Shown here piece after piece: positions 1 through 8,137 of a stretch of DNA of 8,933 nt. This DNA comes from Chloroflexota bacterium (GTDB lineage: Bacteria > Chloroflexota > Anaerolineae > UBA3071). How positions within the stretch are numbered: position 1 is the first letter of the stretch; every line of letters starts with the position of its first letter. The notes beneath the pieces are model-generated. The model saw only the letters and a program-made list of their open reading frames with translations, did no database searches and was not told the DNA's origin. A program made the translations under genes and the position numbers. The stretch spans positions 1-8,933 of the forward strand of contig JACNHM010000162.1 of NCBI GenBank assembly GCA_014383605.1, read 5' to 3'.

Positions 1-236
1 CCGTGGGCGGGGCGACCTGGGTCAGCTTCCATCACGGCGGCGGCGTGGGCATCGGCTACTCCCAGCACGCCGGGCAGGTCATCGTCGCCGACGGCACACC
101 CGAGGCGGCGGTGCGGCTGGAACGGGTGCTGACCTACGACCCCGGCATGGCCGTCATGCGCCACGCCGATGCCGGGTATGCGCAGGCTATCGAATTCGCC
201 AAGCAGCACGGGGTCCGGATTCCGATGTTGACTTGA
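1..236 (+). CDS. hutU: Urocanate hydratase (urocanase), C-terminal fragment
   Basis: This is the last 77 or so codons of urocanase, the second enzyme of histidine degradation, which hydrates urocanate to imidazolonepropionate using a tightly bound NAD+ in the cytoplasm. The visible protein has the conserved C-terminal signatures of the family: [21 protein letters not shown], then a VIVADGT segment, then [14 protein letters not shown], ending at IPMLT with TGA at 234-236. Urocanases are about 550 residues, so roughly 85% of the gene lies to the left of the window. The GTG at position 3 is an internal valine codon, not the start. No other hut gene is visible to the right, so any hut operon extends leftwards and ends here. 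The stop codon is embedded in the -35 element of the next promoter, so there is no room for a separate terminator. Identification is confident from motif conservation. Confidence 0.93.
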
Positions 237-261
237 CCAGTCGTGCATGATCGGATACAAT
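233..261 (+). promoter_or_regulatory. Sigma-70 promoter of the toxin-antitoxin operon, overlapping the hutU stop
   Basis: The -35 hexamer TTGACC (233-238) and the -10 hexamer TACAAT (256-261) are separated by exactly 17 nt, and each matches the consensus at five of six positions. The -35 box overlaps the TGA of hutU (234-236). Initiation would fall near 268, giving a leader of about 35 nt before the antitoxin ATG at 303. A GGAGG Shine-Dalgarno sequence lies at 290-294. The imperfect dyad GCAT (245-248) / ATGC (260-263) around the -10 could be an operator for autoregulation by the antitoxin, but that is only a guess. Confidence 0.72.
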
Positions 262-2890: not shown

Positions 2891-4139
2891 GTTCCTCGTT
2901 CCCGTCAGACGTGTGGATGAAGCAGGAGGGGTCTTCGGCCAGGTAGTCGCCGGTGGTGGCCCAGGAGCGCCCCCGACAGCCGCCGCAGAGCCGCCGGTAC
3001 TCGCACTCGCCGCAACGGCCCCGCAGCCGTGTCTCCCGCTGGCGCAAGTCCTGGAAGACGGGGGAGGTGGCCCAGATGGTCGAGAAGGGCGTCTCCCGCA
3101 CGTTGCCGCAGCTCACCTCGATGAAGGGACAGGGCCAGACCTCGCCGTTGGGCTTGACGTAGACGAAACCACGTCCCGCCGAGCAGCCGTGAAAGACCGT
3201 TTCCGCCAACCGCAGCAGCGGGCCACGGCGGATGCCCGCTCGCTGCAGCAGGAAGGGCCAGTACTGCGGCCCGGCCACCGGCTCCATGATGGCCCGCGTG
3301 GTGCGTTGCGCTTCGGCCATGAAGCGGATCAGCCGCTCGTTGGCGTTCAGGTCCAAGGCCGCCTCGCCGATGCCCCGCCCCCGCCCCACGGGCACCAGTT
3401 GGTACATCAGCAGGATGCCTGTGCCCAGCTCGTCCACCAGGGCCATCAGCGGCTCGATCTGATCCATGTTGTATTCCATGGCCGTGATGTTGATGTGCAG
3501 CAGGATGCCCGCCCGGCGCAGGGCGCGTATCCCCCGCAGGGCGGCTTCAAAGGCGCCGGGCTGCCCGCGCACGTAGTCGTGGGTTTGGGCGTCGAAGCCG
3601 TCCAGGCTGACGGCGGCGATGACCAGGCCGTAGCGGCGCAAGCGGCGGGCCACCTCATCGTCAATGAGGGTGGCGTTGGTGGCCATGGTGTTGGTGAAGC
3701 CCAGGGCCTGGGCATAGGCCAACATCTCGAAGAGGTCGCCGCGTACCAGCGGCTCGCCCCCGGTGAAAGCCATCATGCGGAACTCGGGTACCGCGGCCAG
3801 TTGATCCAGCAGCCGCTTGGCCTCCGCGGTGGTCAGTTCATCGGCGGCGGGCTTGCCGCCCGAAGCGTGACAGTGAATGCAGCGCAGGTTGCAGGCGGCG
3901 GTCATCTCCCAGACGGGGTGGGCCGGGAAGCCGATACAGCCCATGCCCCGCGAGCCGGCGGCGCCGGGGAGGCACTTCAACGCATAGGTGCGCGTCCAGT
4001 ATCCCAGTTCCTGCCAGCGGGCCAGCGCGCCCACGTACAGCGCGCTGGTCACCTGCCGCAGCAGCAGCGTCGGCGGCCACCAGTAAGGCCGTACCTTGCG
4101 CTGGGGCCGTTCGCCCCACTCTGGCAACCAGTGGTTCAT
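2883..4139 (-). CDS. Radical SAM/SPASM protein, NirJ/AhbD-like, substrate unknown
   Basis: A protein of 418 residues. The radical SAM [4Fe-4S] site is CNLRCIHC (C83, C87, C90), followed by the SAM-binding FTGGEP (125-130) and a normal partial TIM-barrel core to about residue 260. The C-terminus is a SPASM-type auxiliary cluster domain: C319, C337, C344, then C376-x2-C379-x5-C385-x2-C388 and C406. The tail phrase CGGCRGRSWATTGDYLAED strongly recalls the haem d1/alternative haem enzymes NirJ and AhbD, but no haem genes are near. Odd is a 75-residue N-terminal extension (RPYWWPPTLLLRQVTSALYVGALARW) with amphipathic or hydrophobic character, which might tether it to the membrane. It starts 30 nt after the UbiA stop and overlaps the polyprenyl synthase by 8 nt, so a role in maturing a prenylated or quinone-like compound is inferred. 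The ATG at 4139 has only a weak Shine-Dalgarno. A peptide-modifying role is possible, but no precursor peptide was seen. Confidence 0.88.
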   Translation of the reverse strand: MNHWLPEWGERPQRKVRPYWWPPTLLLRQVTSALYVGALARWQELGYWTRTYALKCLPGAAGSRGMGCIGFPAHPVWEMTAACNLRCIHCHASGGKPAADELTTAEAKRLLDQLAAVPEFRMMAFTGGEPLVRGDLFEMLAYAQALGFTNTMATNATLIDDEVARRLRRYGLVIAAVSLDGFDAQTHDYVRGQPGAFEAALRGIRALRRAGILLHINITAMEYNMDQIEPLMALVDELGTGILLMYQLVPVGRGRGIGEAALDLNANERLIRFMAEAQRTTRAIMEPVAGPQYWPFLLQRAGIRRGPLLRLAETVFHGCSAGRGFVYVKPNGEVWPCPFIEVSCGNVRETPFSTIWATSPVFQDLRQRETRLRGRCGECEYRRLCGGCRGRSWATTGDYLAEDPSCFIHTSDGNEERD

Positions 4140-4162
4140 GTCCCAAGTCCCAGGGGTTGGCT

Positions 4163-4184
4163 GCGCCGGTCAGGAGACCGGCGC
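4163..4184. repeat. 22-nt palindrome A (9/4/9, GGTC-AGGA-GACC class) at the UbiA stop
   Basis: A perfect hairpin: left arm GCGCCGGTC (4163-4171), loop AGGA, right arm GACCGGCGC (4176-4184). It encodes the last four codons and the TGA stop (4170-4172 on the complement) of the UbiA gene. In the mRNA it forms a strong stem 23 nt before the radical SAM start codon. There is no U-tract, so it is unlikely to be an intrinsic terminator within the operon. Confidence 0.85.
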
Positions 4185-5108
4185 GAACGACGATATGAAG
4201 GCCAGGATGTAGGCCGCCGTGGTGCCCAGGTTCACCAGCAGGTTGGCCCCGCAGAGTCTTTCCAGGACGGCCCGATCCCGCCAGCGGCCGCGCAGCACCT
4301 GCACGACCAGGATCAGCGAAAGGGCCAGGATGGGCAGGTAGAACCACAGCGCCCGCCGGGGCACGCCCTGTCCCAGGGAGAGCAGCATCGCCGCCCAACT
4401 CCCCAGGCTGGCCAGGCCGTAGAGCCAGGCGGCACGCTCCTGCCCCAGACGCACCGTGAGATTGGCCTTCCCCGCCTCCCGGTCGGCCGGGTAATCGGGA
4501 AACTCGTTGAGCAGGATCACGTTGAAGATGGAGAGGCCGATGGGCGCTGCCAGCCAGTGCACCAGCGGCGCGATCTCGCCCACTTGCAGGTAGAAGCCCA
4601 CGGCCACCGGCAGCCAGCCATAGTTGAAGGCGATCCACAGCTCGCCCAGCCCCGTGCGCACCCAGCGCACCGGCCGCGCCGAATAGAAGAACCCACCCAG
4701 CAGGCCGACGATGGCGAAGGGAAGTGTCCACGGCCCTGTGCGATAGCCCAGTTGCAGGATCAGCGCCACGCCGATGGCCAGTAGCAGGCTGACCAGCGAA
4801 CCCCACAACGGGGCACGGCGGGGCAGCAGACCGCGCTGCACTACCTGCGAGCCGCCGGCGAAGCGGCTGGGGCCCAGGCGGGCGGCGAGGGCGTCCTCTG
4901 CGACGTCCCAGTACTCGCCGGCGTAGTAGGTCGCCAGCATCACCAGCACCACGCCCAGCGTGCCCCAACCGAAGATGTCCCAACGGAACGCGCCGGCTTG
5001 CCGCCAGGCCAGCACGCCACCCAGGATGAAGGGCAACACGCCCACGGTGTGGAACGGCAGGCGGGACAGCGCCAGCCAGGCGCGCAGCTTCTTGCCTACG
5101 CCAGACAT
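4170..5108 (-). CDS. UbiA-family (MenA-like) aromatic prenyltransferase
   Basis: An integral membrane prenyltransferase of 312 residues with 8-9 hydrophobic helices, predicted to transfer a polyprenyl chain onto an aromatic acceptor such as a naphthoate. The second aspartate motif is canonical: NEFPDYPADR (201-210), followed by GKANLTVRLG. The linker FYSARPVRWVRTGLGE (141-156) is the usual UbiA-family motif. The first motif is unusual: where most members have NDxxDxxxD, this one has GEYWDVAED (64-72), keeping D68 and D72 but with Gly-Glu for Asn-Asp, then RFAGGSQVVQRGLL. I chose ATG 5108, which has GAGGAG immediately upstream and begins MSGVGKKLRAWLALSRLPFH at the first helix; a longer reading from 5255 would overlap the GNAT gene and adds a Cys/Arg-rich non-family stretch. 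The last residues (APVS) and the TGA stop are encoded by a 22-nt palindrome. DHNA as acceptor is the default guess, not shown. Confidence 0.88.
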   Translation of the reverse strand: MSGVGKKLRAWLALSRLPFHTVGVLPFILGGVLAWRQAGAFRWDIFGWGTLGVVLVMLATYYAGEYWDVAEDALAARLGPSRFAGGSQVVQRGLLPRRAPLWGSLVSLLLAIGVALILQLGYRTGPWTLPFAIVGLLGGFFYSARPVRWVRTGLGELWIAFNYGWLPVAVGFYLQVGEIAPLVHWLAAPIGLSIFNVILLNEFPDYPADREAGKANLTVRLGQERAAWLYGLASLGSWAAMLLSLGQGVPRRALWFYLPILALSLILVVQVLRGRWRDRAVLERLCGANLLVNLGTTAAYILAFISSFAPVS

Positions 5109-5141
5109 TTCTCCTCGCACAGCATCTGCTTCTTTGCTTCT

Positions 5142-5163
5142 CTGCTGGTCTCCTGATCGGCAG
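5142..5163. repeat. 22-nt palindrome B (9/4/9, GGTC-TCCT-GATC) upstream of UbiA
   Basis: Left arm CTGCTGGTC (5142-5150), loop TCCT, right arm GATCGGCAG (5155-5163). All nine pairs form if two G-T wobbles are allowed. Its core reads as the reverse complement of palindrome A and C cores with one change, so it is an inverted copy. It lies in the 70-nt gap between the GNAT and UbiA genes, 8 nt from copy C. Confidence 0.75.
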
Positions 5164-5171
5164 CAGCGACG

Positions 5172-5193
5172 GCAGCGGTCAGGAGACCGCCGT
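5172..5193. repeat. 22-nt palindrome C (9/4/9, GGTC-AGGA-GACC) at the GNAT stop
   Basis: Left arm GCAGCGGTC (5172-5180), loop AGGA, right arm GACCGCCGT (5185-5193). The inner six pairs are perfect; the outer three have one mismatch (A5174/C5191) and one wobble. As in copy A, the core supplies the Val-Ser-stop end of the gene read on the complement (TGA at 5179-5181). Paired head-to-head with B, it can also form a longer 13-bp stem (5147-5159 with 5176-5188). Confidence 0.78.
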
Positions 5194-5640
5194 TGAACAT
5201 CCCCCCGGGGGGCGTGCCATGAAACAGCGTTCGTCCGTTTCTCTGACCACCACAAAGCCCAACCGCTCGTACAGGCGGCGCGCCGGGGTGTTGGTGCGCA
5301 GCACCTGCAGCTTGACAGGCAGGCAGCGTCTATCAGCTTCTACGAGCAACTCCCGTATCAGTTTCGTGCCCAGCTCCTGACTCTGAGCCTGCGGTGCGAT
5401 CTCGATCAGCGCCAGGAAGACGTGATCCTCGTGCCGCTCAACGGCGATGCAGCCGATGGGAGTGCCGTCTGCTTCGATGATCTCCCGCTTCTCAGGGGAA
5501 AACCGCTCCTGGAAGTACTGCCGCTGCCAGGCCTCATCCCAGCCCCAGAGCTGCTCGACGTAGGGCCGGATGGTGTGGCAGTGCAATCCCCACAGGAATT
5601 CGTAGTCTTCTGGTCTTGCCGGCCGGCGCGAGATGACCAT
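5179..5640 (-). CDS. GNAT-family N-acetyltransferase
   Basis: A protein of 153 residues, normal for GNAT enzymes that transfer an acetyl group from acetyl-CoA to an amine. The fold is visible as the N-terminal RRPARPEDYEFLWGLH, the strand pair around GTPIGCIAVERH (59-70), the core strand VFLALIEIAP (74-83), acetyl-CoA loop QSQELGTKLI (86-95), and the motif B helix NTPARRLYERLGF (117-129), whose Tyr124 is the usual general acid. The first Gly of the Q/R-x-x-G-x-G loop is Glu89. Many active members tolerate this, but it is noted. The start at ATG 5640 is set by GGGAG five nucleotides upstream; a longer reading to 5721 would run through the divergent promoter. The C-terminal CSTAVS and stop lie in palindrome C. 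It is the first gene of the - strand prenyl run; a functional link to that pathway is not evident. Substrate unknown. Confidence 0.87.
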   Translation of the reverse strand: MVISRRPARPEDYEFLWGLHCHTIRPYVEQLWGWDEAWQRQYFQERFSPEKREIIEADGTPIGCIAVERHEDHVFLALIEIAPQAQSQELGTKLIRELLVEADRRCLPVKLQVLRTNTPARRLYERLGFVVVRETDERCFMARPPGGCSTAVS

Positions 5641-5662
5641 AGAAACTCCCAACAACCGCCCA

Positions 5663-5691
5663 TTGCCCCTGCATGGCACTTGTGGTAAAAT
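5663..5691 (+). promoter_or_regulatory. Extended -10 sigma-70 promoter of the small membrane protein gene
   Basis: A -35 of TTGCCC (5663-5668), a 17-nt spacer and a -10 of TAAAAT (5686-5691, five of six matches), preceded by TGG, which makes an extended -10. Initiation would fall near 5698, giving a leader of about 43 nt. It lies in the 100-nt divergent gap with the GNAT gene, for which no convincing opposite promoter was found. Confidence 0.62.
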
Positions 5692-5740
5692 GCCGCCGGT
5701 CAAGGCGACCAGAGCGATCAACTGGGTGGAGCATCAAAGC

Positions 5741-6136
5741 ATGGAGCATTCAACACGACTGCGGAACGATCTGGTGATGACCCTGGCGGCCTTCTGTGTG
5801 CTGGTGGCCTCCGTGTCCTTGCTGTGGAGGAACAACTTGCTGCTCTTCTTCGTGGCGCTGGCGGAGTGCGTGACCGCGCTGATCCTGTGGCACGACCGGC
5901 TCGACGTGAGCTTCTTCCTGATCATCGGCGTGCTGGGCTCGCTGGCCGAGGCTGTGTTCGTGCGCTTCGGCGTCTGGCACTACGCCAACCCCACCTTCCT
6001 GGGCATGCCCATGTGGTTCCCCTTGGCGTTTGGCACCACCGGCCTGATCGGGGCGCGGCTGGCCCGCGCCATCACCGAGATGTGGGAGAGGGCCAGTCCC
6101 TCGTCCCTTCCAGAGGACACGGGTCCACGCCGATGA
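5741..6136 (+). CDS. Small membrane protein of unknown function, four predicted helices
   Basis: A protein of 131 residues that I do not recognise as a named family. It is mostly hydrophobic, with about four membrane helices: roughly 12-26 (VMTLAAFCVLVASV), 31-50 (LLLFFVALAECVTALIL), 55-75 (VSFFLIIGVLGSLAEAVFV) and 92-112 (PMWFPLAFGTTGLIGARLA). Between helices 3 and 4 is a striking motif FGVWHYANPTFLGMPMWFP, rich in aromatic and proline residues. This reads like a conserved loop rather than filler and could line a ligand or lipid site. I chose ATG 5741, preceded by GGTGGAG at 5725-5731 and just downstream of the promoter; an earlier ATG at 5633 lies upstream of the -10 and cannot be used from it. 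The C-terminus is short, polar and cytoplasmic or disordered. It converges on the polyferredoxin gene with 18 nt between stops. Confidence 0.78.
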   Translation: MEHSTRLRNDLVMTLAAFCVLVASVSLLWRNNLLLFFVALAECVTALILWHDRLDVSFFLIIGVLGSLAEAVFVRFGVWHYANPTFLGMPMWFPLAFGTTGLIGARLARAITEMWERASPSSLPEDTGPRR

Positions 6137-6154
6137 ACGGAGCGCAGGGAGCAG

Positions 6155-6910
6155 CTATCTTCCCGCACTGAAGGAAAAACGGATTGCCTTCGTCGGGCAG
6201 GTATCCACACAGGTGCCGCACAGGATGCACTCGTCGTCTTCCATGTCCCTGGCCCGCACCATCTGGTTGACGTCCAGGCTCATGGGGCAGTCGCGCGTGC
6301 AGCGGCCGCAATCGGTGCAGGCGTCGGGTTCGGCCTGCAAGCGCAATGCCGGCCAGCGGAAGATGTTCCTGATCCTGCGGCCGATGATCATGAAGGGCGC
6401 CATCCAGCAGAGGTAGTGGCAGCCCGCTCGCCGCCCGAAGATCCAGGCCAGGCCCAGGAAGGCCACAAGGACGATGTAATAGATCATGTACCAGAAGGGC
6501 TGTAGCAGAGTGATGCCGCCGTCTAGCATGTAGAATGGGTCTACGGCTCTGTAGCCGCCGGCCCGGATGGCCAGGGCGCTGATGACGCCGATCCACGGAA
6601 GCCAGACGACGATCCACTTGATCCAGTTGGCCCTGCCGCCTGGGGCTGGTTTCCTGTTGATGGCCTCGCCGAACTCCTGCAGAGCGCCCGCCGGACACAG
6701 CCAGCCACACCATGCCCGGCCCAGGAACAGAGCAGAGAGCAACATCAATCCGAAGACGATGAAACTGGCATTGATGATGCCCTCTACAGCCCCATTCACG
6801 ATGATGTAGGGTGAGAAATAGTACAGCGTGATGGGGAACAGCAGGAACGACAGGTACAGCAACGCCTTCCGAACTCTTTGACGCGTATGCAATTGCCTGA
6901 TCTTGGCCAT
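6155..6910 (-). CDS. NapH-like membrane polyferredoxin (4Fe-4S binding protein)
   Basis: An integral membrane iron-sulfur protein of 251 residues, predicted to pass electrons between the quinone pool and a partner across or along the membrane. Four helices are visible at about 15-35, 45-65, 98-118 and 138-158. After helix 2 comes CGWLCP (C68/C72) and after helix 4 CHYLCW (C164/C168), the paired CxxxC motifs of the NapH/CcoG/NosR-type group; the second has Trp instead of Pro. The C-terminus is a two-cluster ferredoxin: C198, C201, C204, C208 and C228, C231, C234, C238, each CxxCxxCxxxCP. I chose ATG 6910, with GAGGG just upstream; a longer reading to 7018 would run through a palindrome. No nap, nos or cytochrome genes are near, so its redox partner is elsewhere. 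Not NapH itself with any certainty, as napG/napC are absent. Confidence 0.88.
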   Translation of the reverse strand: MAKIRQLHTRQRVRKALLYLSFLLFPITLYYFSPYIIVNGAVEGIINASFIVFGLMLLSALFLGRAWCGWLCPAGALQEFGEAINRKPAPGGRANWIKWIVVWLPWIGVISALAIRAGGYRAVDPFYMLDGGITLLQPFWYMIYYIVLVAFLGLAWIFGRRAGCHYLCWMAPFMIIGRRIRNIFRWPALRLQAEPDACTDCGRCTRDCPMSLDVNQMVRARDMEDDECILCGTCVDTCPTKAIRFSFSAGR

Positions 6911-6926
6911 GATACCCTCACTTCGC

Positions 6927-6944
6927 AGTTGTCCAAAAACAACT
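6927..6944 (-). promoter_or_regulatory. Operator-like inverted repeat upstream of the polyferredoxin gene
   Basis: AGTTGT (6927-6932) and ACAACT (6939-6944) form perfect 6-nt half-sites with a 6-nt A-rich spacer, 16 nt upstream of the ATG at 6910. Size and symmetry suit a dimeric repressor site or an mRNA hairpin near the ribosome site. No regulator gene is in the window to pair it with. Confidence 0.35.
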
Positions 6945-6992
6945 TCGTAGTTTTGCCCCCTGTCTTCTTGCCGGGAGCACCTCGGCCGCTCC

Positions 6993-7014
6993 CCGCCGGA
7001 CCTTAGTCCGGCGG
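6993..7014. repeat. 22-nt palindrome D (9/4/9, GGAC-CTTA-GTCC class)
   Basis: Perfect hairpin: left arm CCGCCGGAC (6993-7001), loop CTTA, right arm GTCCGGCGG (7006-7014). Same geometry as copies A-C but with a GGAC core. Its central 14 nt are the exact reverse complement of the centre of copy E, 78 nt downstream. Confidence 0.85.
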
Positions 7015-7084
7015 CCATGGCAATCCGTGATGGGCCTGACCAGCTCGGTATTTTGCAACTATCGGCACCACCTCAAGGCTCAAG

Positions 7085-7106
7085 GCAGCGGACTAAGGTC
7101 CGCTGC
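7085..7106. repeat. 22-nt palindrome E (9/4/9, GGAC-TAAG-GTCC class)
   Basis: Perfect hairpin: left arm GCAGCGGAC (7085-7093), loop TAAG, right arm GTCCGCTGC (7098-7106). It is the head-to-head partner of copy D. Its left arm differs by a single base from that of copy C (GCAGCGGTC), which links the two sequence classes. Confidence 0.85.
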
Positions 7107-7202
7107 GAGCACTGGCTGAGCCGTTGCCCCGCTGGAAAGTGGGAAGTTATTCTCGGACAAGTCCTTCGGCTAGTATTGAGATCAAGGATCGGTGCGAGGT
7201 TG

Positions 7203-7231
7203 CCGGGGGGCGAGGTCAGCTCGCTCCCCGG
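7203..7231 (-). repeat. Hairpin F (12/5/12) behind the EamA gene, possible terminator
   Basis: CCGGGGGGCGAG (7203-7214) pairs with CTCGCTCCCCGG (7220-7231) around loop GTCAG, with a single G-T wobble. It begins 18 nt past the EamA stop on the - strand. It could stop or stabilise the zinc-ribbon/EamA transcript, but no U-tract follows. Its loop size and arm length differ from palindromes A-E, so I keep it apart from them. Confidence 0.45.
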
Positions 7232-7249
7232 GGACAGGGCGGCCCGTCT

Positions 7250-8137
7250 CTAGCGGCGACGCAGTTGGGCGACCAGCGCTCCGATGGCGGCCAGGCACAT
7301 CCCCGCCATCTCCTGGCCCGTCAACCGCTCCCCCAGGAACAGCCAGGCCAGGATGGCTATCTGTATGAGCATGGTGTTGTTGATGATGCTGGACTCCGTC
7401 GCCGAGAGCGTGCGCAGCGTGTGGTTCCACAGGGTAAAGGCAAAGGCCGTGTTCACCACAGCCAACAGGGCGATGATGCCCCAGTGAGTGAGATTGAGGC
7501 GGGGCAGGCCCTCGATCAGAATCCCGGACGCCAGCAGCACGATGGATCCAATGGTCATGCTGACGGCTGTGACGGCGAGCGGGGAGAGGTCACCGTCGCG
7601 ATTGACGCGCCGACCGAGGATCGAGGAGAGCGCATTGGTCAAAACGCCGACGACCACGACGATCAGCCCCACAACCTGGCTGGCCGGGATGGCCACGGGA
7701 TAGAAGTAGATGCCGACGCCGAGGATGTTGATGAGGACACCGCCCCACTGTAGAGCGGTCAGTTTCTCTGCCAGCAAGGGGATACCGAGCAGCGCCACAG
7801 CGATCGTCGTGAAACTCAGGAGCAGGCTGACGGTGACCGATGGCAGGTAGGCCAGCCCGACGAATTGCGCCCCTTGGGTCACGGTGTAGAAGAGCAGGCC
7901 GAGGACGACCAGGCGTATCCACCCGCGGCCGGAGAGCTGACGAAGGGGCTGCCGGTGAGCGGGACGCAAGGCGAAGGGCAACAGACACAGAGAAGCCAGG
8001 CTGTAACGTAGCCCGGCGAAGGTCAGCGCCGGGATGCCCTCCAGGCCGATCTTGATCAGCACCCAGGACGCAGACCACAGGAGGGTCACGAACAGGGCCT
8101 GCAGCACGGCCCCCCAGTGGGAAGGCTTGTCATTCAT
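7250..8137 (-). CDS. DMT-superfamily transporter, EamA family
   Basis: A protein of 295 residues with ten predicted membrane helices arranged as two EamA repeats, the standard size for drug/metabolite transporters of the inner membrane. Repeat 1 starts with the typical LLWSASWVLIKIGLEGIP (19-36) and ends with the AEKLTALQWGGVLINILGV block (123-141). Repeat 2 ends with the matching LGERLTGQEMAGMCLAAIGALVA block (268-290). The tail is a short positive stretch (QLRRR). Substrate cannot be predicted; family members export amino acids, purines or other small metabolites. The ATG at 8137 overlaps the end of the zinc-ribbon gene (GATGAATGA, 8-nt overlap) and has no clear Shine-Dalgarno, so translation is probably coupled to that gene. 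Stop is TAG at 7250-7252. Confidence 0.9.
   Translation of the reverse strand: MNDKPSHWGAVLQALFVTLLWSASWVLIKIGLEGIPALTFAGLRYSLASLCLLPFALRPAHRQPLRQLSGRGWIRLVVLGLLFYTVTQGAQFVGLAYLPSVTVSLLLSFTTIAVALLGIPLLAEKLTALQWGGVLINILGVGIYFYPVAIPASQVVGLIVVVVGVLTNALSSILGRRVNRDGDLSPLAVTAVSMTIGSIVLLASGILIEGLPRLNLTHWGIIALLAVVNTAFAFTLWNHTLRTLSATESSIINNTMLIQIAILAWLFLGERLTGQEMAGMCLAAIGALVAQLRRR

Follow-up and report, generated by a model that had tools for sequence, protein, structure and literature searches.

In the parts of PMC3733652 that classify them, most repetitive extragenic palindromic (REP) elements are sorted into a GTAG and a CGTC superfamily. GTAG REPs and their REP-associated tyrosine transposases (RAYTs, also TnpAREP), forming REPtrons and REPINs, combine short hairpins with stems of 6–13 bp, present in many copies, mostly intergenic and arranged in dimers and clusters, with adjacent RAYT genes (PMC3733652, PMC6006769, in the sections on these systems), and GTAG repeats have already been reported from Chloroflexi (PMC3733652). 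CGTC palindromic repeats have stems of 8–9 bp and loops of 4–5 nt, form mainly head-to-head dimers and are reported, in the same parts of PMC3733652, without linked transposase genes. Here we describe five 22-nt palindromes, A to E, in an 8,933-nt stretch of DNA from a Chloroflexota bacterium of the class Anaerolineae (JACNHM010000162.1; the window). Their family resembles GTAG REPs in all of these features and CGTC repeats in stem, loop and dimer form, but carries a 3′ GAGC or GAAC tag (5′ GCTC or GTTC on the other strand) rather than GTAG or CGTC, and, unlike CGTC repeats, one of its cores, GGTC-AGGA-GACC, has linked RAYTs. We regard A–E, with good confidence, as REP-type elements outside the GTAG group, belonging to a RAYT-linked family and putatively mobilised by a RAYT.

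All five palindromes lie where the initial annotation had placed them and pair as it described, with three perfect 9/4/9 hairpins and two imperfect ones. Palindrome A (4163–4184, plus strand; GCGCCGGTC-AGGA-GACCGGCGC) is perfect and is followed immediately by the tag GAAC (4185–4188). Palindrome B (5142–5163, minus strand; CTGCCGATC-AGGA-GACCAGCAG) has two wobbles and no GARC tag at offset 0–1, while C (5172–5193, plus strand; GCAGCGGTC-AGGA-GACCGCCGT) has one mismatch and one wobble and carries GAAC at offset 1 (5195–5198). D (6993–7014, minus strand; CCGCCGGAC-TAAG-GTCCGGCGG; GAGC at offset 1, plus-strand coordinates 6988–6991) and E (7085–7106, plus strand; GCAGCGGAC-TAAG-GTCCGCTGC; GAGC at 7107–7110) are again perfect. 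Against these three, 300 sequences generated from a second-order Markov model of the window hold on average 0.057 perfect hairpins of this geometry, with a maximum of 2. Geometry alone gives no excess of imperfect hairpins (7 or more Watson-Crick and 8 or more standard pairs; 10 sites in the window vs a null mean of 7.24), and B and C are credible because of their core. The core GGTCAGGAGACC (GGTC-AGGA-GACC) is exact in C and has one base changed in B; B and C form an inverted pair 8 nt apart, with B on the left and the 3′ sides outward as in REPINs or bacterial interspersed mosaic elements (BIMEs), and D and E form a second inverted pair with tags outward. Similar pairs, 4–5 bp apart with tags outward, occur in G025, one of the related genomes considered below. 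The GAGC/GAAC tag follows four of the five copies (chance of at least four, 4e-7, though both data sets had already been looked at when the tag was identified); none of the five has GT[AG]G 5′ of the hairpin or a CGTC tag. An Rfam search of the window and a plasmid comparison of positions 4100–7300 gave no match.

The copy-number, intergenic and RAYT tests were run on genomes of relatives, each core being counted against the same pattern read backwards. The proposal that these palindromes belong to a dispersed family is borne out by these genomes, some of which hold the cores far above control. Among 396 genomes of the class, 189 contain GGTCAGGAGACC and 40 contain at least five copies (our own reading of the count table). 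The ten highest counts are 474 (G185), 465 (G070), 343 (G121), 176 (G153), 158 (G062), 112 (G002), 105 (G135), 97 (G288), 77 (G113) and 64 (G151), with 0–1 matches to the reversed control in each and none in G002, where copies occur in tandem arrays. In relatives, the short palindrome is thus present in many dispersed copies, as expected of a REP in the broad sense. The second core, GGACTAAGGTCC (GGAC-TAAG-GTCC), is matched in 16 of the 396 genomes and in more than one copy only in G025 (9, control 1), the only genome with several copies of both cores (GGTCAGGAGACC: 12, control 0); the sole other genome in the family of G025 is without GGACTAAGGTCC. The pattern GGWCNNNNGWCC is rarer in G025 than its reversed control (168 vs 1025), and the excess therefore lies in particular cores. 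Another palindromic repeat, of ACCTCCGAGGT type, was seen in G002 and G025 (L002, ~7880–7980; L143, 9346–9378).

The structure of the family was examined in a G025 sample of 737,593 of ~3.8 million bases, part of it fetched around known copies. Hairpins with arms of 8 or longer number 253 in this sample (null 119.5), and 47 of them have GAGC or GAAC at 0–1 nt (null 7.0 of 119.5). Tags accompany 28 of the 39 hairpins with 10/4 geometry and 6 of the 13 with 9/4 (null, 0.5 tagged of 6.0). The exact 9/4/9 form is not constant across the family, 10/4 hairpins outnumbering 9/4 ones. GAGC is the most frequent end tetramer of loop-4 hairpins with arms of 8–10 (33 of 150 ends, followed by AAAA with 8); over all hairpins in the sample GAGC stands at 38 ends, CTAC at 8 and GACG at one. 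A second batch of 400,000 bases, two stretches of which were chosen for having a core copy, yielded 19 tagged hairpins, 13 of them with loop 4 and arms of 9–10. With genes called by a simple program based on codon usage, 38 of the 47 tagged hairpins lie between genes, as do 86 of the 206 untagged ones, noncoding DNA making up 13.8% of the sample; the intergenic bias expected of REPs is therefore present.

The outer arms, which had been described as changing in a compensating manner, do so when tested over the outer five positions of 17 exact-core copies, 4 from the window and 13 from fetched parts of G025. In these, 70 of 85 pairs form against a permutation mean of 43.3, and 0 of 5000 shuffles reached 70; four G025 copies form two overlapping pairs and hence are not fully independent. 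The nine GGACTAAGGTCC copies of G025 alone give 39 of 45 outer pairs (permutation mean 24.8, with a value this high in 1 of 5000), and the four fetched of the twelve GGTCAGGAGACC copies of G025 give 13 of 20, which is not significant (1230 of 5000). One fetched GGTCAGGAGACC copy, that of L172, is untagged and probably a chance match. In G002 the 69 copies examined pair over only 4–6 bp in register, the outer arm pairing better with a small bulge. A census of perfect hairpins in G002, G070, G121 and G185 was uninformative, most copies there not being perfect hairpins. The conservation of the 12-mer core across genomes and its position mostly between genes would also suit sites at which a dispersed regulator or nucleoid protein binds by recognising the fixed core. 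However, a protein binding the duplex would not need outer arms that vary yet covary, and neither the tandem arrays nor the RAYT linkage described next fits such sites, making this the least probable of the explanations weighed here.

The search for a RAYT gene beside the palindromes succeeded in several genomes of the class, for the GGTC-AGGA-GACC core only. The first RAYT loci searched were without the core, bar one copy in L106. At L101 (G062) hairpins of the types GGATC...GATCC and GGTTC...GAACC, several ending GAGC/GCTC, lie on either side of a RAYT, and the protein of this RAYT used as query led to L183 (G288), L195 (G062), L193 (G337) and L182 (G151), where 4, 9, 6 and 1 exact copies of GGTCAGGAGACC, respectively, adjoin the RAYT gene. 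Within 1.5 kb of the RAYT these four loci hold 20 copies vs 0.27 expected, and the other 45 of the 49 scored loci hold 2 vs 2.9 expected, the four having been noticed first and the 45 including the variant-core clade members L181 and L184. All four proteins tested (L183, L195, L193 and P0001) exceed the cut-off of NCBIfam NF047646 (REP-associated tyrosine transposase). PF01797 (Y1_Tnp), tried earlier as a marker, detects nothing in G288, which has a RAYT, and was replaced by NF047646 and alignment; the impression that some high-copy genomes lack a RAYT was therefore partly wrong.

Scored with a profile built from six clade members, 22 of the 396 class genomes contain a clade RAYT reaching 150 bits, a threshold set by eye with at most 8 first-look candidates scored per genome. 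At least five core copies are present in 11 of these 22 genomes vs 29 of the 374 others (p = 9e-7, kinship not corrected). Of 54 RAYT rows, 20 form one clade; a core-like motif lies in a stretch of ~3 kb (about 1.5 kb either way of the RAYT gene) in 15 of these 20 and in 0 of the other 34. In a tree of 51 rows (3 of the 54 dropped), a branch with 100/100 support sets off this clade, and with it the RAYTs that have the core-like motif, and GTRG-flanked RAYTs fall on one side of a 96/91 branch, opposite the core-flanked ones. Further clade loci carry cores of the form GGTC(T/G/-)GGAGACC. On sequence grounds, A, B and C match the hairpins beside this one RAYT clade of Anaerolineae-class genomes, while D and E, which also carry the GAGC/GAAC tag, probably belong to a related RAYT, their connection being the tag and their likeness to the GGATC hairpins at L101 and L177. 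Repetition, intergenic bias and RAYT linkage in relatives together support the dispersed REP-like family first proposed, with variable geometry and with GAGC/GAAC in place of the canonical GTAG. Two other types of palindrome were seen at RAYT genes: CTGGTG-TCCT-CACCAG hairpins at the clade loci L267, L269, L271 and L273, which keep the AGGA loop and change the inner arm from GGTC to GGTG, and GTTCCCACGC...GCGTGGGAAC palindromes ending GTTC/GAAC at L283–L285, beside RAYTs further from the clade (126–129 bits).

The clade enzymes also differ from GTAG RAYTs at positions linked to the tag. With residues numbered by alignment to E. coli TnpAREP (4er8), W94, Q95, E/D100, H/R101 and R104 are named in the context of GTAG guide recognition in the relevant section of PMC6006769. 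The six profile members keep W94 and Q95; position 100 is P or A, position 101 is E in five of the six, and none has R at 104. The L193 RAYT, reading A-E-V at 100/101/104, is likewise without the GTAG-linked set. Across the 54 RAYT rows the E/D100, H/R101, R/K104 set is found in 7 of 8 GTRG-flanked, 0 of 15 core-flanked, 0 of 3 GARC-flanked and 6 of 28 other RAYTs, a comparison that covers positions 100, 101 and 104; C-terminal contacts are named as well in the part of PMC8266576 concerned. Presence in 7 of 8 GTRG-flanked RAYTs vs 0 of 18 flanked by core or GARC argues for REP-type elements with another tag.

Several observations weigh against assigning A–E to a RAYT-linked family. A Pfam scan of ten open reading frames (ORFs) of the window found no RAYT. 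Homology and profile searches found no clade RAYT in G025; of its three RAYT loci, C71 (L155) and C58 (L236) stand beside GTAG-tagged palindromes of other families, the GTAGGGCAACT... and GTAGGGGCGGAC... types, which are separate REP families, and C94 has neither GTAG nor A–E-type palindromes. The D/E core GGACTAAGGTCC adjoins no RAYT in the loci examined, and the core-like motif is absent from 5 of the 20 clade rows. The letters of the tag differ by genome, being mostly (C/G)A(A/T)C in G002 and CAGC in G070. Seven genomes exceed 100 core copies, and among them a clade RAYT reaching 150 bits is present only in G062 (at most 8 first-look candidates scored per genome); G070 with its 465 copies shows only a 24-bit RAYT fragment. 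Because six of the seven high-copy genomes are without a clade RAYT at this threshold, our confidence in the RAYT-linked family stops short of certainty; gaps in the metagenome-assembled genomes (MAGs) or gene loss may account for the missing enzymes, and loss of REPtrons in strains of E. coli is on record in PMC3733652.

These same high-copy genomes would be expected if the palindromes were elements resembling miniature inverted-repeat transposable elements (MITEs), moved by a transposase other than a RAYT. Such movement would also fit a 51-bp stretch (7088–7138, plus strand) comprising most of E and 32 nt downstream, which is identical in G025 (L147, 6968–6918), while both of its flanks differ between the window and G025. 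Window positions 1–239 share 92% nucleotide identity with G025. Judged by the size and inverted pairing of the elements, which are REP-like, and by the linkage of the core to RAYTs in four genomes, MITE-like elements seem a very improbable source. Under the RAYT-linked model, the enzyme, an HUH (Y1) single-strand DNA transposase, would recognise on one strand a hairpin with a stem of ~9–10 bp, a 4-nt loop and a 3′ GAGC or GAAC tag, the tag serving as a putative guide. After cleavage near this flanking tetranucleotide, the element would be copied or moved to another position, chiefly in intergenic DNA and often as part of an inverted pair. The window copies may be relics or may rely on a RAYT encoded in another part of the genome.

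Two of the palindromes overlap the ends of genes. A contains the last codons and TGA stop (4170–4172) of a minus-strand UbiA gene, and C contains the TGA stop (5179–5181) of a GNAT-like ORF, also on the minus strand. Together with the tolerance of wobbles, these overlaps would suit transcription terminators or 3′-end mRNA stabilisers of single genes, immobile and conserved as RNA structures. So would the finding that, among the 36 tagged intergenic G025 hairpins for which a gene was called on each side, 28 stand between same-direction genes, but such gaps are similarly common in the background (250 of 345). The palindromes lack the T-run of a terminator, and none of the three terminator-like sites in 4100–7260 coincides with A–E. 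Copy numbers of 0 to 474 per genome within one class, tandem arrays and the same core adjoining RAYT genes also speak against a role at single genes, which we find very improbable.

Among 13 loci matched by the UbiA protein, the best four are Chloroflexi/Anaerolineae MAGs at 74–81% identity, further matches including archaea at 65% and less. Five of the 13 were examined at the junction, and at one of these, L003, the next gene is not visible. In L001, L002, L004 and L012 UbiA ends two or three residues past ...AF, and the next ATG, 4–11 nt past the stop, opens an ORF starting like the radical SAM protein of the window (a resemblance confined to the N-terminus except in L002). The window UbiA extends instead as ISSFAPVS, with its TGA within A and the next ATG 30 nt off. 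As these four relatives are without A at the junction, A is best read, from this comparison, as an addition there.

Among described RAYT-like genes, those of TIRtrons (TIRYTs), whose other repeats are described in part of PMC3733652, and of TnpAREP subclass 2.6 and class 3, named as non-GTAG in part of PMC6006769, likewise have non-GTAG flanking palindromes, some of them repeated genome-wide. The clade reported here differs from class 3, for which PMC6006769 gives a CnGA foot and the Y motif Y----Q, in having Y---NP like class 2, and from subclass 2.6, which the same section describes as mostly from Bacteroidetes; an overlap with subclass 2.6, compared by description rather than by motif table, or with TIRtrons may exist. 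Literature searches turned up no paper on the core, nor for the pairings of REP with Anaerolineae or GAGC and of RAYT with GAAC, and a search for GTTCCCACGC gave no title on REP elements among its matches. We lean towards a further RAYT-linked REP superfamily, marked by the GAGC/GAAC tag and by a RAYT lineage with replaced GTAG-reading residues, in which core types (GGTC-NGGA-GACC, GGTG-AGGA-CACC and GGATC) and guide tetranucleotide would have changed together with the enzyme. The G025 copies would then be orphaned beside GTAG systems that retain their RAYTs. Tetranucleotide reading and cleavage-site choice by RAYTs have been studied on GTAG systems in the part of PMC8266576 that treats them, and a lineage that differs both in its tag and in the residues at these linked positions would be a natural experiment on tag reading. 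If correct, this proposal would explain intergenic palindromes of the Anaerolineae class that lie outside the scope of GT[AG]G-based searches.

Finally, window positions 1–239 and 1672–1785 match adjacent stretches of G025 (L144, 6913–6565), from which the intervening ~1.4 kb (240–1671) seems absent. This segment includes a likely toxin-antitoxin pair (303–1026), in which a PIN-domain gene comes after a Phd/YefM-like antitoxin that scores below the Pfam cut-off. A perfect 10-bp hairpin with a 6-nt loop (371–396) lies inside the antitoxin ORF and is unlike the A–E family.

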